A stretch of DNA of 64,000 nucleotides from the NCBI GenBank assembly GCA_004296885.1, contig SCVN01000004.1:62001-126000 (forward strand), in the 5' to 3' direction. Shown here in pieces: positions 4,274-61,600 of the stretch; positions within the stretch are counted from its first letter, which is position 1, and each line of letters begins with the position of its first letter. This DNA is from Nitrospirota bacterium (GTDB lineage Bacteria; Nitrospirota; Nitrospiria; Nitrospirales; Nitrospiraceae). Made by a program: the position numbers and the translations under genes. The notes beneath the pieces are model-generated. The model saw only the letters and a program-made list of their open reading frames with translations. It made no database searches and had not been told where the DNA came from.

Positions 4274-5240
4274 AACCCTCGGCTCTTGTCTGGCTCGCGG
4301 ACGGGACCGGCGTACGGTCACGCTTGAGTCCGTTGCGATGCCAGTTCCGGACATGCGAAGCCTGTCTCGCTGGGTTCGGCAGCGGGAGCTGTTCCGGCCT
4401 AATCCGTCGGTCGGCTGCCAGGACCGCCGACTGAACGACCCCATACAGTTCCCGAAGATTCCCAGGCCACGAGTAGGCTTCCAGTGCCGCGCGGGCCGCG
4501 GGACTGAAACCCTCAACCTGCTTCCCAAGCTCGCCGTTGGCCATAGCCAGAAAATGGTAACTGAGCAGGCTGATGTCGCCTCGTCGCTCACGCAGCGGTG
4601 GAATCCTCAGAGGGATTCCGCCGCTCAGGCAGTTCATGAGATCCTTGTGGCGTTCTCCTGCCGTCGTCCGACTCAAGCAGCCGGTGGTGGCCGCCATGAT
4701 GCGGACATACACGGAGAACGGCTTGATTCCTCCCAGCCGCTCCATGGATTTGGTTTTTAGGACCCGCAACAGCCGTCCCTGAACCCAGTTCGGCATCAGC
4801 TCAATGCGCTCCAACAACAGCGACCCTCCCCACGCCAATTCCAGCTTCCCCGGCAGGCTCTGCGCCAGGCCCGAACAGAACCCGGCCTCGCACCCAAACA
4901 GCTCGACCGCCAGCATCATGTCGGACAATGCCGAGCAATCGACGGCGATAAAGGAACCCGTACGGTAGGGGCTGAGACCGTGGATGATCTGCGCCACGAG
5001 CCGCTTTCCCGTGCCTTCTTCCCCCTCCAGCAACAACGGCACATCGTACGGGGCATAGGAGTGCATGAGACGACGTAGTGCCCGCATCGGAGCACTCTTC
5101 CCGATCAGATCCAGATCGCGCGGCTGATGGGACATGCCCCACCAGAGCTTCGGAGCCATCGAATCACTATTCACCAGCTTCATACCTATCACCATTTCCC
5201 CATTCCCGCCCTCATGGACTGATGAGACGAATACCGACAT
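4257..5240 (-). CDS. Degenerate sigma-54 activator-like AAA+ protein
   Basis: 327 residues resembling the central AAA+ domain of bacterial enhancer-binding proteins, with no N-terminal receiver and no Fis-type helix-turn-helix. Walker A is recognisable (GEEGTGKR, 73-80) and sensor II is kept (WPGNLREL, 259-265). The sigma-54 contact loop GAFTGA is GFCSGL (120-125). The Walker B Asp-Glu pair is Glu-Arg (LLLER, 141-145). Sensor I Asn is Thr, and the arginine-finger segment FREDLYYRL reads HKDLMNCL (198-205). From family knowledge such a protein should neither hydrolyse ATP efficiently nor remodel sigma-54. It may be a decaying gene or a regulatory mimic that forms mixed rings with the active NtrC-type protein encoded next to it. 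Other in-frame ATGs exist at residues 16 and 20. The gene overlaps the start of the downstream kinase. Confidence 0.75.
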   Translation of the reverse strand: MSVFVSSVHEGGNGEMVIGMKLVNSDSMAPKLWWGMSHQPRDLDLIGKSAPMRALRRLMHSYAPYDVPLLLEGEEGTGKRLVAQIIHGLSPYRTGSFIAVDCSALSDMMLAVELFGCEAGFCSGLAQSLPGKLELAWGGSLLLERIELMPNWVQGRLLRVLKTKSMERLGGIKPFSVYVRIMAATTGCLSRTTAGERHKDLMNCLSGGIPLRIPPLRERRGDISLLSYHFLAMANGELGKQVEGFSPAARAALEAYSWPGNLRELYGVVQSAVLAADRRIRPEQLPLPNPARQASHVRNWHRNGLKRDRTPVPSASQTRAEGYGQRH

Positions 5241-5272
5241 AATGAGCAGGACTCATAATGAGCAGGACTCAT
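5241..5272 (-). promoter_or_regulatory. Two tandem copies of a 16-bp dyad directly upstream of the start codon
   Basis: The minus strand carries ATGAGTCCTGCTCATT twice in perfect tandem immediately before the start of the degenerate activator gene. Each copy contains the inverted repeat ATGAG-TCCTG-CTCAT. A duplicated dyad touching a start codon could be an operator or a translational hairpin. The function is inferred only from symmetry and position. Confidence 0.45.
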
Positions 5273-5410
5273 ACCAGGATTTAGACTGTCAGGTGCTCTA
5301 GCAGATCCACAGTGGCTAGCTTGCATAACAAATTGAATAATTTTAACTATTCTACTTCGCTCAACTGGGATTCATGCAGAGGATGGAAGTGGAAAGGCAA
5401 CAGTGACGGG

Positions 5411-11776: not shown

Positions 11777-11901
11777 AGGATGCTCAAAAAGGCCACCCAA
11801 CGAGGCCGCAGGGAAGCTCGGCCCCCGAGGCGTACGCGGGGAGGGTACGTTGAGGGGGACGAGCGACTGAGAACAAAGTTGGGGGCCTTTTTCAGCATCC
11901 T
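11777..11901. repeat. 125-bp palindromic element with ~24-bp terminal inverted repeats (copy A)
   Basis: The left end AGGATGCTCAAAAAGGCC and the inverted right end AGGATGCTGAAAAAGGCC match over about 24 bases, and the internal halves also pair imperfectly around GCGTACGC (11830-11837). A related 188-bp copy lies at 50603-50790. The last bases supply the stop codon (TAG) of the rlmD-like gene. This looks like a small non-autonomous mobile or REP-like element; no transposase is nearby. Confidence 0.75.
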
Positions 11902-13358: not shown

Positions 13359-14744
13359 CTAGTGCTCGGGCCGCAGCTCGATGTTCAGCAGTTTGATCTT
13401 CCGATGCAGGTGGCTGCGTTCGATCTTGAGCTCGTCGGCCGTGCGGGAAACGTTCCAACTGTGCTCGCGGAGTTTGCGGGCGATATAGTCCCGCTCGAAG
13501 GCATTGCGGGCGTCCTTGAGCGAGTCGTAGGACTGGCCGGCCAACGCCACGGATCCGGCCGTCGCTCCGGCTGCCGCAGGCTTGGCTTGCAGAAACCCTT
13601 CGATGTCAGAGGCCTCGATCACCGGCCCCGGCACCATGATCAACAGCCGCTCGATCAGGTTGCGCAGCTCGCGGATGTTCCCCGGCCACTCATAGGCCTG
13701 CAGCACTCCCAGCGCCCCCGCCTCCACGTCCTTGAGCTTCAACCCCTGCTCCTCCGCCGCCATGTGCAGAAAATGTTGAACCAGCAGCGGAATGTCCTCC
13801 CGCCGCTCGCGCAGCGGGGGCACCTCGATCGGCAGCACGTTCAGCCGGTAGAACAAGTCTTCGCGAAAGTTGCCCTTCTCGATCTCCTTGGCCAGGTTCT
13901 TGTTCGACGCCGCAATCACCCGCACGTCCACCTTGATCAGCTTGTTGCCGCCGACGCGCGTGAACTGCTGCTCCTGCAGCACCCGCAGCACCTTGGCCTG
14001 GGTGCTCAGGCTCATGTCCCCGATCTCGTCCAGGAACAACGTGCCCCCGTCCGCCTGTTCGAACTGCCCCCGCTTCTGCGTCGTAGCCCCGGTGAACGAA
14101 CCCCGCTCGTGCCCCAGCAACTCGCTTTCGATCAGGGTCTCCGGGATCGCCGCGCAGTTGACCGCCACGAAGGGCTTGTCCCGTCGCGGGCTGGCCATAT
14201 GAATCGCCCGGGCCACCAGCTCCTTGCCGGTGCCGTTCTCCCCGGCGAGCAGGACCCGGCCGGTGGTGGGGCCGGCGGTCTCAATCAATTGCCGCAGCTT
14301 TTGCATGGCCGGAGACGTCCCCACCAATTCGAACCGCCGCGCGACCGTCGTCCGCAGCTTGAGATTTTCCTCTTCCAGGCGGTGCTGATCCAACGCGTGC
14401 CGGACCCGCAGCATGATGTTGTCCAGCGAGAGGGGCTTCTCGATGTAATCGTAGGCCCCCAGCTTGATGGCTTTCACCGCCGTCTCGATAGATCCGTGGC
14501 CCGACATCATCATGACCTGGAATTTCGGGGCCTGTTCCCGGATCTTTTTCAAGGTCTCCAGCCCGTCCATCTCGGGCATCCAAATGTCCAGCAACACAAG
14601 GTCGGGCGGCTCGCCGGCGATCATCTTGAGCGCCTCGGCGCCGCTCTTGGCGACCGACACTTGATAGCCTTCATCCTCGAGAATCCGGCTGACGCTGCTG
14701 AGGATGCCCGGCTCGTCGTCCACGATCAGAATCGATTCAGCCAT
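13359..14744 (-). CDS. ntrX: NtrX-like sigma-54 response regulator
   Basis: 461 residues: receiver (1-120, Asp53 in LLDIWMPEMDG, typical of NtrX), AAA+ domain with GENGTGKE, sigma-54 loop GSFTGA, Walker B GGTLFLDEIGDM, arginine finger FREDLFYRLN and sensor WPGNIREL, then a Fis-type helix-turn-helix (WNVSRTADELKIERSHLHRK). Together with the upstream NtrY-like kinase it forms a system known in other bacteria to act in nitrogen, redox or envelope regulation; the signal in this organism is unknown. The genes are separated by about 100 bases that contain a heptamer tract. The stop is followed by a possible hairpin (TGCCGGA/TCCGGCA, about 13286-13312). Confidence 0.9.
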   Translation of the reverse strand: MAESILIVDDEPGILSSVSRILEDEGYQVSVAKSGAEALKMIAGEPPDLVLLDIWMPEMDGLETLKKIREQAPKFQVMMMSGHGSIETAVKAIKLGAYDYIEKPLSLDNIMLRVRHALDQHRLEEENLKLRTTVARRFELVGTSPAMQKLRQLIETAGPTTGRVLLAGENGTGKELVARAIHMASPRRDKPFVAVNCAAIPETLIESELLGHERGSFTGATTQKRGQFEQADGGTLFLDEIGDMSLSTQAKVLRVLQEQQFTRVGGNKLIKVDVRVIAASNKNLAKEIEKGNFREDLFYRLNVLPIEVPPLRERREDIPLLVQHFLHMAAEEQGLKLKDVEAGALGVLQAYEWPGNIRELRNLIERLLIMVPGPVIEASDIEGFLQAKPAAAGATAGSVALAGQSYDSLKDARNAFERDYIARKLREHSWNVSRTADELKIERSHLHRKIKLLNIELRPEH

Positions 14745-14753
14745 GAACCCCTC

Positions 14754-14838
14754 GTGAAAAGTGAACTGTGAACTGTGAACGGTATAGGACTTCGTCTGTC
14801 CTTGTTCGACTTCTCACTTTTAACCTTTTACCTTTCAC
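14754..14838. repeat. Heptamer tract between ntrY and ntrX (inverted arrays)
   Basis: The left array has four 7-base units (GTGAAAA, GTGAACT, GTGAACT, GTGAACG; 14754-14781). The right array has four units of the opposite polarity (TTCTCAC, TTTTAAC, CTTTTAC, CTTTCAC; 14811-14838). The arrays are imperfect inverted repeats of each other, so the transcript between the two genes could fold. It belongs to the 7-base-period family seen at five other gene borders here. Confidence 0.8.
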
Positions 14839-14844
14839 GCACTT

Positions 14845-17118
14845 TTACACCGGCAATTCGATCGTAAACACGGCGCCCTTCGGCTGGTTGTTGGCCACGC
14901 GGATCTGCCCATCGTGGTCCGTGATGATGCGGTGTACGATCGCCAATCCCAATCCGGTTCCCGTCCGCTTTCGGGAGAAGTACGGCACGAAGAGCTTCTC
15001 CTGATCCTCCGGGTTGATGCCCACCCCTTCGTCCGCCACGCTCACCACCGCCCGGTGCCGCTTGGCCTCGTAGCGGGTCGTAATCCACAGCCGCCCCTTG
15101 TGGTTCACCGCCTGCACGGCATTGTCCAGGAGATTCACGAACACCCGTTTCATCTGCTCCCGGTCCAGGTTCATCGGCGGCAGCGTGTCGTCCAGCTCCA
15201 CCACCCACTCGATCTCCCGATGCGCGCCGCGGTAGAGGGCCACCACGTCCCGGATGATGTCGTGCAGCGACTCTTTGGCCATGCGGGGCGCCGGCATCCG
15301 CGCGAATTTCGAAAACTCGTCCACCATCTGCTTGAGGCTGTTCACCTCGTTCACGATCACTTCCGTGGACTCGTCGAAGATCGCCTCGAAGTCCGGCGAC
15401 TTCTCGAAAAACTTCTTGCGCAACCGCTGGGCCGAGAGCTGAATGGGCGTCAGCGGGTTCTTGATCTCGTGCGCGATCCGCTGCGCCACCTCCTGCCAGG
15501 CGGCGGTCTTCTGCGCCTTGATGAGCTCGGTCAAATCTTCGAACACGAACACGAATCCCAGGTCTTTCCCCGCCTCGTCGCGCATCCGGGAGCAGTTCAG
15601 GCCGATGGTGAGGAACTTGCCTTGGACGTCCAGCGGCCCTTCCTGCGAGAGGCTGTCCCGGCGCTCCGCCAGCATGCGGTCGTAGGCGCTTTGAAACAGC
15701 TCCACGCCCAGCTCCTTGAACGCCTCGTTGACCGGCCGCCCGCGCATCTGGTTGCCCAACACGCCGAGGATCCGCTCCGCCGAGGGATTAAACGTCGTGA
15801 TCGCGCCGTTCTTGTCGATGGACAGCACTCCGGATGCGATGGTGTCCACCACGGCCTGGGTATAGGCGCGCCGGCGGTCCACCTCGACATTGGACTGTCG
15901 CAGCGACACGTTCGCCTCCTCCAGTTTCGACTTACTCCCCTTCAGATCGGCCGTCATCCGGTTGAAGGACTCCACGAGCGTGCCGATCTCGTCGGTCGCC
16001 TTGACGTCCAGCCTGACATTGAGGTTGCCGTGAGCCACCGCCTCGGTGGCCTCGGCCAGCCGCTGGATCGGCACCGTGATGCCGCGCGCCACGTAGAAAC
16101 CGAACCAGGTGGCGCCGAACAGGATCATGACCGTCACCACGGCCACGAACAGGTAGGCCCCGACTTTGATCGGGTTCCGCAGCGCCTTGATCTGCCGGTA
16201 TTCCGTGTACTGGCGCGAGATGCCCTCCATTTTGGCCAGCAGGGACTCCGGCACGTAGGCGTCCACGACCACGACGCCGTCCACCTCGCCCTCGCGGGCA
16301 TTGGAGGCGATCGGAACCGCCGCGCGGATCAGCCGGCCGGTTTGCGCCTCCTGCACCGACGTCAACTCCCCCTTCTCCTTCAATACCTGCAGCACCAGTT
16401 GCCCGATCGGCAGATCCAACACGGAGGCGGGCACAGCCCGATCCGTCGTCTTGGTCAGCGGCTCCATCTTCGCCGAATAGACCTCCACGCCGGCCAGATT
16501 GTGTTCGGCCCGCTTCCGATCCATCGTGGCGATCAACAATTCCCGCTGCTCGGGAATCAGCATGTCCTCGCGAAAAATTTCGCGGCTGATGGCGCGGGCG
16601 CTGTTCACCGCCAAAACCGTATGGCCCTCGTGATGCATCCGCGCCACGTCGTACGAGTCCGCCAGCACCTGTTCGATCTGCTCGTTGAACCACACATCCA
16701 CCGCCTTGTTGACCAGCCCGCTGGCCACGACCGCGAGCAGCATCGTCGGGATCAAGGCGAACCCGATGAACGCCGCCACCAGCTTGGCCCGGAATCCGGA
16801 CCCGACCAGGCGGTGCCGCCGCTCGAAATAAGCCTTGATCAGGTTCCGGGACAGGAGCAGCGTCAGGACGACCAGCCCGATCAGGTCCAGGTTGACCAGC
16901 AGAAGGACGAAGGCATAGCTCGGACCGGGCAGCAGCGAATCGGCATCGGAGGGCCCGGGCACCGCGTATTGGGAGACGTCCTGGGCGTAGTAGAAGGTCA
17001 GCGCCAAACAGGGCAGAAGGAGCAGCAGCACGATCCAGACCGGACGCGAGTAAAAGCGCCGGCGCTCGCCTTCTGCGGCCGTTTCTTCGACGGGCCCCGG
17101 CGTGATCGGATCGGCCAT
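14845..17118 (-). CDS. ntrY: NtrY-like membrane sensor histidine kinase
   Basis: 757 residues. Four hydrophobic segments lie near residues 25-45, 65-95, 110-135 and 305-335, with a periplasmic region between the third and fourth. HAMP (about 330-385), PAS (about 405-510), HisKA with RIAHEIKNPLTPIQLSAQRL and HATPase (NLLDNAVQAV, DEGVGI, GTGLGLAIVHRI) follow. The domain order and the HEIKNPLTPI signature are those of NtrY. ATG 17118 overlaps the stop of the upstream peptidase gene (TGATG); a GTG one codon earlier is also possible. It lies upstream of ntrX in the same transcription unit and should phosphorylate NtrX. Confidence 0.92.
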   Translation of the reverse strand: MADPITPGPVEETAAEGERRRFYSRPVWIVLLLLLPCLALTFYYAQDVSQYAVPGPSDADSLLPGPSYAFVLLLVNLDLIGLVVLTLLLSRNLIKAYFERRHRLVGSGFRAKLVAAFIGFALIPTMLLAVVASGLVNKAVDVWFNEQIEQVLADSYDVARMHHEGHTVLAVNSARAISREIFREDMLIPEQRELLIATMDRKRAEHNLAGVEVYSAKMEPLTKTTDRAVPASVLDLPIGQLVLQVLKEKGELTSVQEAQTGRLIRAAVPIASNAREGEVDGVVVVDAYVPESLLAKMEGISRQYTEYRQIKALRNPIKVGAYLFVAVVTVMILFGATWFGFYVARGITVPIQRLAEATEAVAHGNLNVRLDVKATDEIGTLVESFNRMTADLKGSKSKLEEANVSLRQSNVEVDRRRAYTQAVVDTIASGVLSIDKNGAITTFNPSAERILGVLGNQMRGRPVNEAFKELGVELFQSAYDRMLAERRDSLSQEGPLDVQGKFLTIGLNCSRMRDEAGKDLGFVFVFEDLTELIKAQKTAAWQEVAQRIAHEIKNPLTPIQLSAQRLRKKFFEKSPDFEAIFDESTEVIVNEVNSLKQMVDEFSKFARMPAPRMAKESLHDIIRDVVALYRGAHREIEWVVELDDTLPPMNLDREQMKRVFVNLLDNAVQAVNHKGRLWITTRYEAKRHRAVVSVADEGVGINPEDQEKLFVPYFSRKRTGTGLGLAIVHRIITDHDGQIRVANNQPKGAVFTIELPV

Positions 17119-18374
17119 CACCCTGCGTTGCCTCCAGCCGCGCGACCGCCGGGACGGGACCCGGTGGAAACCGGGCCGCCGGTCACGCCGCGGAACGGCT
17201 CCCCCAACACGGATGCAAAGGCCTCGTCGAAACTCGGGGCCTCCGCCAAGGCGCGGAGGAGACGGCGGATTTTTTCCAGACCGTGCTTCTTGATCAACGC
17301 GCGCACCGTCTGCGCGCTCTCGGCATAGGCCTGGGCGGCGGCGCGCGGCGACTCGCCCTGGAAATGGCTCTGGGTTTGCTGCAACTCCGCCTCGTCCGCC
17401 AAGCGCGGCGGCAGCGGGGCGGAGCCGGACGGATCTTCACAGTAGAGCGCCAACCCCTCCTGCAACCAGCTCGGCGCCTGGCCCGCGCTGAGCCGATGCA
17501 CGACCGCATGCGCATACTCGTGCGCGAGCAGCGTCTGCCAGGCCTGCGGCTGATCGACCAGGCTTTCGACGGGCAGGTGCAGGCGGCCGTCGAAGAAGCC
17601 GCCGGCCCAACGGGGGCTTCCGGTCACGGAACGGAACTGCTCGCGCGGATAGAGAATGACGACAAAGGAGTCCTGCGGCATATAGTCGAAGAGGCGCCCC
17701 ACCTGCTCGGCCGTCCGGTCCAATTGCTGGGCCACCTGCAATGCAGTAGCCCGGTTCTGAATTCCCTGATAGGCCACGACGAAATGCTGGTTGAACAGAC
17801 GGCTCAGGGTGCCTTCGAACTGGGCCGCGCGCCGCAACCCGGGAAGACGCGCCTTCACTTCGAGGTCGGCAGGGTCCTGCAACAGCGCGAATTCGAAATG
17901 CGTCAGCGCGCCCCGGACGTCCCCCTGCCGTTCCAAAATGTCGCCCAACAGCTTGTGAGCTTGCCCGACATGCGGATCGAGCACCAGGGCATGCTCAAGC
18001 GCCGGCAGGGCTTGGCCGTCCCGCCGCGCCCGATGCCAGCTGAGCCCCAGGCCGACCCAGTAGACGGCTTCATGGGGAACCAACTCCGCCGCCGCCGCAA
18101 AGGCCTGTTGCGCGCCCCGGGCATCGCCCCGGTCGAGCAATGTCCATCCACCGGCGGCCCAGACCTGGGCCGCCCATCGCGGGGCAGCCGCGCCCTCCCA
18201 TAGAGCGGAGGTATTGGACATGCCGGCGACCGCCGGCTGATCCTGGGCCAGGGCGGAAACGTCGCGCCCATCCCCTTGCCCTTGCAGCCCCCCCCCCCAC
18301 GCCACACCGCACCAGAGGCCCGCCAGCAGCGGGACCGCCGGCGAACGGAGCAGCGTCTGTAGATGGAGTGTCAT
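17118..18374 (-). CDS. Secreted TPR protein with a gluzincin-type peptidase domain
   Basis: 418 residues. The N-terminus looks like a signal peptide (MTLHLQTLLRSPAVPLLAGL). About 150 residues of tetratricopeptide-like helices follow, for example WVGLGLSWHRARRDGQALPA and AHKLLGDILERQGDVRGAL. The C-terminal half carries the zinc motif HEYAH followed downstream by WLQEGLALY, the arrangement of the peptidase-MA-like gluzincins (HExxH plus a downstream Glu). It should act in the periplasm on an unknown substrate. I prefer ATG 18374 because it begins the signal peptide; a TTG at 18509 that touches the stop of the DUF1844 gene is an alternative. It overlaps the ntrY start, so peptidase, kinase and regulator are probably co-transcribed. 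Confidence 0.78.
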   Translation of the reverse strand: MTLHLQTLLRSPAVPLLAGLWCGVAWGGGLQGQGDGRDVSALAQDQPAVAGMSNTSALWEGAAAPRWAAQVWAAGGWTLLDRGDARGAQQAFAAAAELVPHEAVYWVGLGLSWHRARRDGQALPALEHALVLDPHVGQAHKLLGDILERQGDVRGALTHFEFALLQDPADLEVKARLPGLRRAAQFEGTLSRLFNQHFVVAYQGIQNRATALQVAQQLDRTAEQVGRLFDYMPQDSFVVILYPREQFRSVTGSPRWAGGFFDGRLHLPVESLVDQPQAWQTLLAHEYAHAVVHRLSAGQAPSWLQEGLALYCEDPSGSAPLPPRLADEAELQQTQSHFQGESPRAAAQAYAESAQTVRALIKKHGLEKIRRLLRALAEAPSFDEAFASVLGEPFRGVTGGPVSTGSRPGGRAAGGNAG

Positions 18375-24410: not shown

Positions 24411-24487
24411 GTGAATGGTGAATCGTGAACGGTGAACGGGCTGCTAGCAATTACGATTCACAGTTTACTGTTTACCGCTTATCGTTG
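24411..24487. repeat. Heptamer tract between hemE and hemH (inverted arrays)
   Basis: Left units GTGAATG, GTGAATC, GTGAACG, GTGAACG (24411-24438). Right units ACGATTC, ACAGTTT, ACTGTTT, ACCGCTT, ATCGTTG (24453-24487), the inverted and diverged form. The right array runs into hemE and supplies its TAA stop codon. Confidence 0.8.
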
Positions 24488-29852: not shown

Positions 29853-29940
29853 GTATGGTGACGGGTGAATCGCGATCAGTGATGGGTGGTATGCCTACCT
29901 CCGCACTGCATCACCATTCACGATTCACCAATCACATCCT
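29853..29940. repeat. Heptamer tract upstream of the EamA gene (inverted arrays)
   Basis: The left array carries GTGACGG, GTGAATC, GCGATCA, GTGATGG in 7-base register (from about 29858). The right array carries CATTCAC, GATTCAC, CAATCAC (29914-29934), the inverted form. The following TTCACGG unit supplies the TGA stop of the small gene at 29944-30147. Confidence 0.75.
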
Positions 29941-37395: not shown

Positions 37396-38055
37396 ATGAC
37401 CAGAGTCCAGCGGATACAGATGTTCAGCTTGTGTGCGGCGTTGCTCGGCATCGGCCTGGCCGGCTGCGCCATGACCGGAAACGGCCAGAGGGGCTTTGCC
37501 TATCAGGATTTCCCCGTCGCCAAAGGCAGCGCGACGGCGGGAGAGGGACAGACGGTCACGTTCAAGGGCACCCCCCTGGCGCTGGCCGGGCCGGGGATCA
37601 AGGTGGGCGACTCCCTTCGTGCGGTCCAGGTGGCCAAGACCGACCTCAGCCTGACCGGTATCGCCGAAGGAAAAGGCAAAGTCCGGATCATCAGCATCGT
37701 CCCCTCGCTGGACACCAAGGTCTGCGAGCAGCAGACCCACTACTTGAGCGAACAGAACGACGGATTGGACAAAAGCGTGGAGCTGATCACGGTCAGCGTG
37801 GACACCCCCTTCGCCCAGAAACGCTTCGCCGAGGAAGCCAAGATCAAGAATGTGACCTTTTTGTCCGATTACCGAGGAGGGGACTTTGGCAAAGCCTACG
37901 GCCTCCTGGTCGCGGGTCCCCACATCCTGGCCCGCACCGTCATGGTGGTGGACAAGGACAACGTGATCCGGTACCTGCAGATCACGCCGGAGCTGGCCCA
38001 GATGCCGGACATGGACGCGGCGTTCAAAGCGGCCCGATCATTAGAGAAGAGCTAA
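37396..38055 (+). CDS. Lipoprotein thiol peroxidase (Tpx family) lacking the resolving cysteine
   Basis: 219 residues. A lipobox (LAGC, Cys24) replaces the cytoplasmic start of usual Tpx. The Tpx core is clear: the peroxidatic Cys110 in VPSLDTKVCEQQTH, SVDTPFAQKRF and the Arg-containing ILARTVMVVDKDN. In E. coli Tpx the resolving Cys follows PFAQ-x-RF; here that position is Ala145. So the enzyme should work as a one-Cys peroxidase that needs an outside thiol or an alternative partner. It is predicted in the periplasm. ATG 37396 follows GAGAGG. Its TAA stop lies in a heptamer tract. Confidence 0.85.
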   Translation: MTRVQRIQMFSLCAALLGIGLAGCAMTGNGQRGFAYQDFPVAKGSATAGEGQTVTFKGTPLALAGPGIKVGDSLRAVQVAKTDLSLTGIAEGKGKVRIISIVPSLDTKVCEQQTHYLSEQNDGLDKSVELITVSVDTPFAQKRFAEEAKIKNVTFLSDYRGGDFGKAYGLLVAGPHILARTVMVVDKDNVIRYLQITPELAQMPDMDAAFKAARSLEKS

Positions 38056-38105
38056 TGGCTTATAGCTTATGGCCTGAACGACTCTTGCCATAGGCCATTG
38101 GCCAT
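38050..38105. repeat. Heptamer tract between tpx-like and sthA-like genes (inverted arrays)
   Basis: Left units AGCTAAT, GGCTTAT, AGCTTAT, GGCCTGA (38050-38077). Right units TTGCCAT, AGGCCAT, TGGCCAT (38085-38105), the inverted form of ATGGCTT-type units. The first unit contains the TAA stop of the peroxidase gene. Confidence 0.7.
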
Positions 38106-39532: not shown

Positions 39533-39582
39533 CGGCACGTCCCGCTCCGCTCGACCTTTCCCTGTCATGCGACGCTCATTCC

Positions 39583-39603
39583 GGCTATCGGCCATCGGCC
39601 ATC
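39583..39603. repeat. Short heptamer tract before tenA
   Basis: Three units GGCTATC, GGCCATC, GGCCATC in exact 7-base register just upstream of the tenA ribosome site. They are too few for a strong statistical case alone, but match the unit style seen at 38085-38105. Confidence 0.5.
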
Positions 39604-39622
39604 AGCTCCGAGGAGTGTAGCC

Positions 39623-54741: not shown

Positions 54742-54783
54742 TTACGTTGCTCGTATCTCGTTGTTGGTAGAGAGGTCCTCTTC

Positions 54784-54839
54784 CTTCACGCTTCACGCTT
54801 CACGCTTCACGCTTCACGCTTCACGCTTCACGCTTCACG
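54784..54839. repeat. Eight perfect tandem copies of CTTCACG
   Basis: CTTCACG is repeated eight times without error (54784-54839), followed by a degenerate CTTCTTC. Units are the inverse of the GTGAA(A/C)(G)-type units at 14754 and 24411. The TGA stop of the MOSC gene lies within the array, so copy-number change cannot easily shift the gene, but it could extend the read-through tail. Confidence 0.95.
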
Positions 54840-55317
54840 CTTCTTCCACCGTGACCGCATCCCCGACGCACACCGTCCCTTCGGCCAGGACCCTGGCATA
54901 GAGACGGCTCCACCCTGGATGCAGGTCTTGGGAAATACGGCTGAAGTCTCCGTCGTGAAACAGACAGGTGTTTTGTTTGCAGGGCGCCGTATAGCTCACG
55001 ACCTCCAGCCGGACCTCGTTCCCCACCGCAATCCGACTGCCCGGCGCAATGCCCGCCCAATCCACGCCGGCCAACGTGAGGTTGTCCCCGCTCGATCCCG
55101 GCTTGATGGGATGGCCTTCGGCCTGCAGCGCTTCGATCAACTCCAGCGAAAACAGGCAGACGGCCCGATCCGGCCCTCCGTGAATCAAGGGCGTCTTCTG
55201 CCGGTCGCCCTCCACCCGTTCTTTCGTAATGCGGGCCTGGGGCACCGGCAGCTTGGGCAGCCCTCCGTTGGACACACTGATCTGGTGCAGATACGAACGC
55301 CCTGTCTTGCTCGTCAT
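54835..55317 (-). CDS. MOSC-domain protein
   Basis: 160 residues. The MOSC (molybdenum cofactor sulfurase C-terminal) fold is seen in HQISVSNGGLPKLPVPQARI, GDRQKTPLIHGGPDRAVCLF, GSSGDNLTLAGVDWAGIAPG, and the conserved Cys in TAPCKQN. Such proteins handle sulfur transfer in molybdoenzyme maturation or reduce N-hydroxylated compounds (YiiM-like). The stop codon is supplied by the heptamer array. The gene overlaps prmA by ATGA. Confidence 0.88.
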   Translation of the reverse strand: MTSKTGRSYLHQISVSNGGLPKLPVPQARITKERVEGDRQKTPLIHGGPDRAVCLFSLELIEALQAEGHPIKPGSSGDNLTLAGVDWAGIAPGSRIAVGNEVRLEVVSYTAPCKQNTCLFHDGDFSRISQDLHPGWSRLYARVLAEGTVCVGDAVTVEEA

Positions 55318-58660: not shown

Positions 58661-61600
58661 TCGCGTCGCGGCAGAGCGATCACGTCTCCCAGAGACTGGT
58701 CGCTCTGCCCCTCCCTGTGCTCACCCACCCGCTGATACGAACCGGATCGGATCGGAACCCCGTCGTGGAACACGATGTAGTTGGACGGCAGGGCCGGCAC
58801 GCGCGGCCCGGGCAGGATGATGCCGGCCAGATTCAGCGGGTCCGCCCCGGACAGTTTGATCTCTGCCCCCCCCCCCGATGCAGTCCCCGCTCGCCGCAAG
58901 GCCCGGAGCGACTCCACCGCCTCCGGTAGCGCAAACTGCTCCCCCACAAAGCCGGCCACGAAGCGCCCGCCCCTGATTTCACCTCGCGACTCGAGGCGGC
59001 GGTACTGCACGAGCAGATCGCGCCAAGGCGGACTGAGCGATTCGCGGCCCAACAAGTCCCGAAAGACGACCCCATAGCGCCGCAACAGCTGACGAGCGAC
59101 CGACTCCTCCGGGCGGACCGCCGAGGGCTGATCGCCGACGGCGTGCCTGAGCAGGGACCAGCGGCCGGCGCTGCGGCCAGGCCGCCTGGCTTTTCCACGC
59201 CCCTCGGCCCGCCGCCGTTTGGGATCCAGCAGCGCCCGCAAGTTGTCGAACCCGTCGGCGGTGACGAGACCGGCGGCCGCCAGTTCCCACAAACCCCCTT
59301 CCACTTCCGTCTGCAGATGGCCCGTGCCCGCGACCAGGTCGGCGAAAAAGCTCGCCCCGCGCGACCGCAAATATCGCTGGAGGTCCTGCGCCACCGGTCC
59401 CAGGTTTCCCTCCGCCACAGGACCGACCGCTTCTCCACCGGCACGAAGCAGCCACCAGGCCTCCTCCCGCGGAAAGAGACCGATCGGCGCGACACTGGTG
59501 GGCATGATCCGTTTGGCGCGCGGCGCGTCCCCGAGGCCGAGCATCGGCTCTTCGAGACGAGGATGGGGGCTGAGCCGGCCCCAGGCCGCCATGCCGCCGA
59601 GACACAGCCGGTCGAGCCAATCGGGATCGTACTTGGACATCCGGCAAGGCAGGAGAAACCGCTCCCAGGCCGAGGCGGCCGCTTCGAACCCGGCCAGTTG
59701 GCGGATCACTTCCTGCAAACCCGCCTCTCCGTGCAGGCGCGAGCCGGGCGTCACATGCTGCCACTGGAACAAAAACTTCATGAACTCCGCCGCCGTGACC
59801 GGCTCGATTTCCTTCCGGAGGATGCCGATCGTCAGGCGATGAATGCGCGCCAGCAGCCGCCGGTCGCACCACTCCGGCGCTACCGCGCCGGAATTTTCAA
59901 TTTTGAATTCTACATTTTGAATTGGCGCAGGGCGGAAGTTCCCGCGCAGGACTTGTCCGGTTGCTTCGAGCTGGAGCAGCGCCCCGTTCACGGCCTCCGG
60001 CGCAAGCCAGAGCTTCGCCGCCAGCTCTCGCACCGTCGTTGGGCCCGTGCTCTCCATCCAACCTTGTACGATGGTGCGGATCGCTGTTTCCCGGTCCGGC
60101 CGCACCCCCTCTATCGTAAGACTCGGGGGAAGCAGGACATTCGGAAACGCAGCCTGGATCACGGAGACCCGCTCCATCGCGACCCAGCCATGCACAGGCG
60201 CCGACGCGGGGACGGGGCGGGCAGGCAACGCAGCGTGCCCAACTCCCCGCGTCTCCGTGTCCCCGCGTCCCACCGTCACAATCACGGCGCGACCGGCCTG
60301 GAGCAGCGGCAGGAGATAGGCAGCCCAGGCCGGCGCTATCTGCTCCGGCACCCAGTGCAGCGTCAACAGCGCATCGTGCAATTCGTCGGGGCTCCGCACC
60401 ACCGGCCAGGCCTCGTCCTCCACCTCGGCAATCGCGTCCGCCGACAAGGCGCCCAGCTTCCCCGCCAGATCCGGCGACAAACTGCGGCGCATCTCCACGG
60501 CCCTGGCCCGCCGCTCTTCCAGCGGCGCATCGTCCAGAAAGGCATAGGGGTTCGCGTTGAGGATTTCATGACAGAAGGGCGAGGGAGCGGGCGTATCCCT
60601 GGCCAGGCATTGAATCGCTCCCGATTCGATGTTGCTCAGAAGGGCTTCGAGTCCGTCGATATCCATGGCCTCGGTCAGGCAATCGCGGATCGTCTCCCGG
60701 ACCAACGGATGGTCCGGCACGTCGCGCGGGCCGTGGATATTTTCCTGGCAGGCGGTGGCGGCGGGAAACACGGAAGCCAGCAGGTCCTCCGCCCTCATCC
60801 GCTGGATCTGCGGCGGGACTTTTTTGCCGTTGGTAAAACGGAGCAAGGCCAGGGACCGTTGGGCGTTCCAGCGCCAGCGGGTCATGAACATCGGAGCCTG
60901 GAGGACGGCCTGGATCAACACCTCGCGGACCCCGTCGGCACGCAGAAACCCGAAGACCGACTCGAGCGGGAAACTGTGTCGTTCGCCCAGCGACAGTACG
61001 ATGCCCTCGTCCGTGGCCGCCGCCTGCAGCTCGAAGTCGAAGGTGGCGCAGAATCGTTTTCTCAAGGCCAGCCCCCAGGCCCGGTTCAACCGGCCGCCGA
61101 AAGGCGCATGCAAGACCAGTTGCATCCCGCCGCCTTCGTCGAAAAACCGCTCCGCCACGATTGTCTTCTGGGTCGGCACGGTCCCCAGCGCCGCCCGGCC
61201 CGCCAGGACATAGGCGACCGCCTGCTCCGCTCCCCGCCGGTCGAGGCCACAGTCCTCTTGGAGCCATTGAAGAGCTGATGGCTGACGGCTGATCGCGTCT
61301 CGGATTGCGGCGACTTCGGCCGACAGTTCCGCCGTACGGGCCGGCGCCTCTCCGCGCCAGAAAGGAATGGTTGGCGGCGCCCCATGGGCATCCTCGACCC
61401 GCATCTTTCCAGTTTCAACCCCGCGGATGCGCCAGGAGGTATTGCCCAGCAGGATGATATCGCCGGCCAGGCTTTCGACCGCAAAATCCTCGTCCACTGA
61501 ACCGACGACTGTGCCATCCGGCTCCGCGATCACGGCGTAGTTGGCCGTGTCCGCAATCGCCCCGCCGGAGGTGATGGCCGCCAGGCGGGCACCGCGCCTG

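Follow-up and report, generated by a model that had tools for sequence, protein, structure and literature searches.

The spacer between the ntrY and ntrX genes of a Nitrospirota bacterium is filled by two facing arrays of short degenerate units. The tract belongs to a repeat system dispersed through the genome and is not a device specific to ntrYX. Elements of this system lie in gene-gene spacers; each has a variable loop with an array on either side, the two arrays facing each other and containing about four units of 7 nt (or 8 nt) each. Operon spacers and the peripheral stems of riboswitches can be replaced wholesale between sister species whose flanking genes are about 91% identical.

In the window, by which we mean the whole analysed stretch of 64,000 nucleotides, the ntrY-ntrX spacer comprises 100 nt (14745-14844, minus strand). 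It lies between an upstream histidine kinase gene (14845-17121, minus strand), recognized by histidine kinase models and named ntrY by position only, and a downstream gene for an ntrX-like sigma-54-dependent response regulator (13359-14744, minus strand), named after its best NCBIfam model, NAssimRespRegNtrX, which it matches below the curated cut-off. The NtrX protein shows 67-77% identity to proteins of named Nitrospira/Nitrospirae MAGs. The left array (14754-14783, plus strand) reads GTGAAAA GTGAACT GTGAACT GTGAACG GT and consists of four GTGAANN units with a period-7 segment score of 15.5 and a TRF match of 100%. The right array (14812-14838, minus strand) reads TCTCACT TTTAACC TTTTACC TTTCAC, that is, four degenerate NNTTCAC units corresponding to GTGAANN on the minus strand, with a period-7 score of 10.5. 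Both members of the inverted pair of heptamer arrays described in the first-pass annotation are present with these scores.

Further tracts of the same period had been listed at 24411, 29853, 38050, 39583 and 54784. All of them exist (at 24411, 29858-29935, 38051-38105, 39582 and 54784); they have the period in common, but their units represent several families (GTGAANN/CTTCACG, GCYATNN, CGGCYAT). The hemE-hemH spacer contains a GTGAANN two-arm element (24411-24483; arms at 24411-24439 and about 24455-24483), and arrays were also found in this spacer in the related genomes G001, G014, G022, G005 and G015. A GTGANNN two-arm element (29858-29935; arms at 29858-29884 and 29909-29935) was detected as a hairpin with periodic arms, and a GCCATNN-family two-arm element (38051-38105; left arm 38051-38073, right arm 38087-38105) by a period-7 call; the spacer of the latter is also arrayed in G003, G014 and G022 and, with octamer units, in G005. 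The array at 39582-39606 is single and of the CGGCYAT type (TRF and period-7 call). The perfect (CTTCACG)8.6 array found by TRF at 54784-54843 is part of a composite element in the spacer 54742-54834, which recurs at L199:5199-5283 and in the ntrYX spacer of G001. This composite element combines a (CTTCACG)n arm with a non-complementary GATACGA-type side, and a conserved middle connects the two; it differs from the other families in forming no simple hairpin, and it seems to have spread by copying.

Some other repeats of the window were noted. An AT-rich heptamer tract at 59891-59923 (GAATTTT CAATTTT GAATTCT ACATTTT GAATT) possibly represents a further unit family, and a perfect tandem 16-mer, CATAATGAGCAGGACT, is repeated 2.2 times at 5238-5273, upstream of a gene ending at 5240. 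A dispersed palindromic MITE-like family, distinct from the heptamers, is represented at 11779-11899 of the window, L141:6826-6947, L126:7150-7273 and in a spacer of G012. It has ends like GATGCTGAAAAAGGCC...GGCCTTTTTCAGCATC and an inner GTAC-containing palindrome, CAACGTAC...GTACGCCT, and can sit at addresses where relatives have heptamer arrays (e.g., L187:15241 versus G001).

The genome comprises 3.26 Mb in 23 contigs, the window has a GC content of 63%, and three congeners (G001-G003) are included in the genome set, which consists mostly of MAGs. Genome-wide statistics were obtained from sampled contiguous stretches totalling 1.184 Mb with our own codon-based gene caller (starts uncurated) and with self-chosen thresholds accompanied by shuffled controls. 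Period-7 segments occurred in 44 of 674 spacers compared to 0.5 in dinucleotide shuffles, and period-8 segments in 13 spacers compared to 0.4. Among the periods 5-16, the multiples 14 (26) and 16 (10) were the only others raised, all remaining periods giving at most 6. By a joint rule, i.e., a segment or a hairpin with periodic arms, 79 of 584 spacers were positive, compared to 1-2 in shuffles. The arms of 50 intergenic hairpins (5 in shuffles) showed a self-similarity of 0.47 at lag 7, 0.46 at lag 14 and 0.49 at lag 21, compared to 0.32 at lag 8 and 0.19-0.31 at other lags. Searches for three consecutive units gave 95 sites for GTGAANN genome-wide (at most one mismatch; 1 for the reversed-pattern control), 83 for TCAGCNN (0 in the control) and 71 for AAAGTCNN (at most one mismatch; 0 in the control). 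The arrays are thus degenerate tandem 7-nt units that are intergenic and occur above chance, as in the STRR class to which the first-pass annotation had likened them as a genome-level repeat family. The genome-wide occurrence, the excess over shuffled intergenic sequence and the inverted pairs bear this out; the single family has to be replaced by several families, heptameric and octameric, with one architecture. The units cannot be aligned as parts of a longer repeat without periodicity, since the loops are mostly unrelated. The genes flanking arrays were co-oriented in 36 cases, convergent in 4 and divergent in 3, compared to 333, 37 and 59 for all spacers. A role as intrinsic terminator or promoter was rejected, as there is neither an orientation bias nor an enrichment in convergent spacers.

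The unit families include GTGAANN, TCAGCNN, GCCATNN, ATGATGA and the octamer AAAGTCNN, and each unit has a conserved core and about two near-random columns. In GTGAA units the first free column contained C, A, G and T 66, 69, 70 and 67 times despite the GC-rich genome; such column counts are conditioned on recognizable neighbours, by which core conservation is somewhat inflated. Of 106 pairs of GTGAA cores not more than 20 nt apart, 60 had a distance of 7 and 42 a distance of 14, and the cores of the AAAGTC family are spaced mainly by 8 and 16. The polarity of the arms is fixed. In this genome, G001 and other Nitrospiraceae taken together, GTGA was on the left and TCAC on the right in 40:0 elements, TCAGC on the left in 24:0 with one more mixed, AAAGT on the left in 14:0 and GCCAT on the right in 11:0, with CGTCA at 3:1; many arrays were detected on one side only under the strict rule used for this count. 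Loops within one family look unrelated, and a few elements nearly match each other over 60-80 nt, among them the composite CTTCACG element with relatives in this genome and G001. Examples are L188/L201 (93% over 59 nt) and window 54742/G001 L225 (85% over 62 nt). Copying and pasting of whole elements was rejected as a general rule, because the loops are mostly unrelated even though these near-copies exist. Two further candidates were discarded: cassettes of 7-mers closing all three reading frames, as the cores GATACGA, GCCATNN and GAGGC contain no stops, and quasi-palindrome correction, in which one arm templates the other, as the arms lack in-register similarity. At L140 near 11828, L140 near 16976 and L150 near 15453, array arms enter the 3′ ends of neighbouring genes, so that predicted C-terminal residues are repeat-encoded and differ between congeners. 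At L146:2270-2403, TCAGCNN arms surround a nested non-heptad hairpin, AGAGAAGGGGCTGGA...TCCAGCCCTTTCTCT; this hairpin is nearly identical in G001 and the arms differ.

The addresses of the arrays are conserved between genomes. For window spacers with an array, the orthologous spacer in seven relatives was arrayed in 15 of 22 cases, compared to 11 of 97 for window spacers without one (Fisher p 1.5e-7). Among 150 spacers orthologous with the congener G001, 13 had arrays in both genomes, 13 in our genome only, 6 in G001 only and 118 in neither (p 9e-8). The median identity of flanking genes in this comparison was 91%, and G001 was the only congener compared in depth; part of our sample had been chosen for GTGAANN hits, which shifts the array rate and not the within-pair comparison. 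When the one-sided pairs were read, many proved to contain a degenerate array in the genome scored as lacking one. Spacer identity to G001 was 81% where arrays were absent and 54% where both genomes had them, and words were found to be swapped, some assignments being made by reading: AAAGTCNN for CAATGTT at L145:17688, GTGAANN for CTGCCTT at L149:15278, GTGAANN for TCAGCNN at L150:17706 and, at ntrYX, GTGAANN for a GATACGA element. In 18 swapped cases the flanking genes could be aligned up to the stop and from the start, with a dip only in about the last 18 nt. An assembly artefact was considered unlikely, as both flanking genes are retained around the swapped elements, whose loops are unrelated, and as the single-contig genome G015 is also rich in arrays (146 CGTCANN sites). 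In nine alignable elements, identity between species was 72% for free columns, 88% for cores, 87% for loops and 87% for background, figures that comprise 72 free positions and one element (L200:5938) which is itself a swapped array. Cores are therefore not visibly more constrained than background over this distance.

By the strict call, the ntrYX spacer carried arrays in 11 of 24 family members and in none of 9 genomes outside the family. The units at this spacer include GTGANNN, TCAGCNN, CGTCANN, CGTATCT and the octamer GCTGACAA, and the family members clearly lacking an array have mostly short spacers of 11-63 nt. The words differ between genomes like dialects. CGTCANN is absent from the four genomes of the genus and abundant in G015; for AAAGTC, 71 sites were counted here, 119 in G007 and 62 in G022, most other genomes having none; GTGAANN occurs throughout the family and only rarely in sister families, with the exception of G032. 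At 74 ntrX-centred loci outside the order, mostly records of the Desulfobacterota type, Acidobacteria and Gemmatimonadetes, 9 spacers had period-7 segments compared to 0.5, and clear inverted arrays were found at L049, L080, L085 and L087. The architecture is hence not confined to Nitrospira.

Arrays are also part of structured RNAs. Two cobalamin riboswitches here (L200:6012-6285 and L200:2563-2801) and two in G001 (L242 1691-1973 and 5197-5459, both minus strand) were identified with 81-87 bits. All four have 75-103 nt in a peripheral terminal loop for which the Rfam model has 4-8 positions, and the inserts are inverted arrays, of TCAGCNN or GTGAANN here and of GTGATNN/GTGACNN in G001. One riboswitch is orthologous between the two genomes according to its flanking genes. 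Array hairpins are therefore compatible with a folded RNA and exchangeable there. The ntrYX spacer RNA, for which folding had been proposed, can form a hairpin (MFE -23.5 kcal/mol, z -1.86; 8 of 200 shuffles equally stable). Register-specific pairing of the arms is lacking, as shown by 57 two-arm elements, in which in-register arm pairing scored 11.79 compared to 12.36 for permuted arms and was higher than permuted in 16 of 57, a slight deficit that may be an artefact of the choice of arm ends. Core transitions keeping a G-U pair on the sense strand numbered 42 versus 30 (p 0.19). The arms pair through their common word and not through covariation, and selection on RNA structure is not demonstrable, as there is no gain over permuted arms.

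As the origin of the arrays, we tentatively favour turnover of a dispersed repeat system at the DNA level, with RNA hairpins as a by-product. Arrays would lengthen and shorten by slippage and would swap or overwrite units via short core microhomology, and existing arrays would serve as landing pads, so that the address stays while the word changes. In the transcript, the arms could fold into a hairpin that follows the stop codon of the upstream gene and precedes the start of the downstream one; this hairpin would be tolerated or co-opted, as in the cobalamin riboswitches, and would not be the reason for the existence of the sequence. This reading is preferred because the period-7/8 excess is confined to spacers and shows no preference for gene orientation, because cores lie at exact 7/14 or 8/16 spacing next to near-uniform free columns, and because loops are unrelated, yet a few near-copies occur. 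It further agrees with congeners that keep addresses and swap content, with species-specific dialects, with arms that pair no better in register than permuted ones and with the free columns of alignable elements, which tend to diverge more rapidly than loops and background. Against it, exchange between families lacking a common core has no demonstrated route, a core with free columns at unrelated addresses could equally reflect a sequence-specific reader, and the family-wide conservation of addresses may reflect selection.

Such a reader is at the centre of an explanation that we regard as unlikely but serious, namely that the elements are paired sites for global DNA-binding proteins, IHF/HU-like or otherwise oligomerizing, which would read the core while the two arms make the proteins face each other; different unit families would answer to different proteins. 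The conserved core with free columns, the exact spacing, the fixed polarity and the recurrence of one core with unrelated loops all fit this explanation, which was also proposed for the paired 7/8-mer sites of Geobacter metallireducens (PMC2700814). However, one genome has many unrelated cores, orthologous addresses use different cores although their genes are about 91% identical, the cores of alignable elements are not more conserved than background, and no candidate protein emerged.

We consider it distinctly unlikely that the arrays are RNA hairpins selected for their structure, the address requiring a stem-loop between genes for translation coupling or for mRNA protection or processing and the word being free. 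Different words at the same addresses, elements reaching from the stop codon to the start region, array hairpins in the peripheral loop of four cobalamin riboswitches and the surplus of G-U-compatible core transitions point in this direction, but in-register pairing does not exceed that of permuted arms, the G-U surplus is not significant, and structure alone leaves the repeated identical units, the period of 7 and the fixed polarity unexplained. Mobile doublets of the REPIN type, moved in trans by a RAYT/Y1 or another transposase, appear very unlikely. They would account for the inverted doublet with its variable loop and fixed polarity and for some near-copies; the arms, however, are heptad arrays instead of REP palindromes, the loops are mostly unrelated, and no PF01797 (Y1 transposase) match was found in the array-bearing genomes G000 (this genome), G001, G002 and G007, which contradicts a Y1 transposase, though another transposase class may act instead. 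As a speculation with very little probability, the arrays might be written and not copied: the 3′ ends of a cut spacer hairpin would be tailed with a templated word by a hypothetical enzyme, which in each of about four rounds adds the core and about two bases that are not specified, and would then be joined. This would explain why the arrays form inverted pairs and why each word has a single polarity, as well as the independent free bases of the two arms, the unrelated loops and the genome dialects, and also the swapped words at conserved addresses, because hairpin addresses would break again; if true, it would mean that Nitrospira, and perhaps other phyla too, have an unrecognized writer of repeats that works from a template. 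The suggestion of the first-pass annotation that folding or processing of the array pair determines the ratio of NtrY to NtrX mRNA is highly improbable, for although the spacer can fold and nearly half of the family members have arrays there, similar elements occupy 7-14% of spacers, many of them unrelated, arrays show no preference for gene orientation, several Nitrospiraceae have short, array-free ntrYX spacers, and covariation is lacking.

Heptamers have been reported piecemeal, as STRRs in cyanobacteria, quadruplexes in Xanthomonas, translation signals in Beggiatoa and regulator sites in Geobacter. Cyanobacterial STRRs share with the arrays described here the degenerate intergenic heptamers, in unit words that we take to be different from those of Nitrospira. 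STRR heptamers are reported to lie in the gene for RNase P RNA as well (Vioque 1997, cited in PMC2858038), a location comparable to the Nitrospira riboswitch stems. Heptamers are the commonest long SSRs of bacteria, with polymerase slippage as suggested cause, as related by papers citing Mrazek (2007). The TAACTGA repeats of Beggiatoaceae are intergenic heptamer arrays of 2-6 units (PMC4679880), but they consist of one invariant word in direct repeats, nearly always unpaired, located just upstream of start codons. REPINs and REP doublets are extragenic inverted doublets with a variable loop as well; their arms, in contrast to the direct 7/8-mer arrays of Nitrospira, are palindromes bearing tags of the GTAG or CGTC type, often accompanied by a RAYT (PMC3116915, PMC3733652).

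The closest precedents are the GGGANTN arrays of Xanthomonas and the paired 7/8-mer sites of G. metallireducens. The GGGNATC-type repeats of Xanthomonas and Nostoc are intergenic heptamers with a core and free positions (GGGANTN), mostly in four units; Xanthomonas has 70-75 convergent pairs per genome. Two species carry the repeats at the same pairs of genes, with variation of the sequence, and the repeats belong to no functional class and were read as G-quadruplexes (PMC4692102). They represent one G-rich word, whereas the Nitrospira words mostly lack G-tracts and none of the main words GTGAANN, TCAGCNN, GCCATNN and AAAGTCNN has a GGG core, so that quadruplexes cannot be a general explanation. 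In G. metallireducens, several classes of "predicted global regulator binding sites" were described, with 3-5 tandem 7- or 8-mers of degenerate consensus (GTTGCTYN, MTYCTGA), mostly as pairs on opposite strands at variable distance; one lies in the proBA spacer, where Geobacter sulfurreducens has a different sequence, and the function of the sites (IHF/HU) is a hypothesis of the original paper (PMC2700814). The Nitrospira arrays are likewise paired on opposite strands (GTGA, TCAGC and AAAGT without exception in unmixed elements) with variable loops and comprise several classes of 7- and 8-mers. They differ in their words, and the Geobacter sites were described per genome by BLAST, without shuffle, cross-relative or pairing tests. 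In the literature searched, we found no description of such arrays in Nitrospira; within it, the multi-word Nitrospira system, the statistics on conserved addresses and swapped words, the fixed polarity, the riboswitch stems and the negative covariation result are new. Compared with the earlier reports, the Nitrospira data point to one architecture of facing arrays with a core and free columns, about four units and interchangeable words, and this interchangeability at conserved addresses speaks against quadruplexes, a single regulator or any other explanation tied to one word. The question "why seven?" thereby becomes the testable one of how the short repeats of bacterial spacers are written, replaced and kept.
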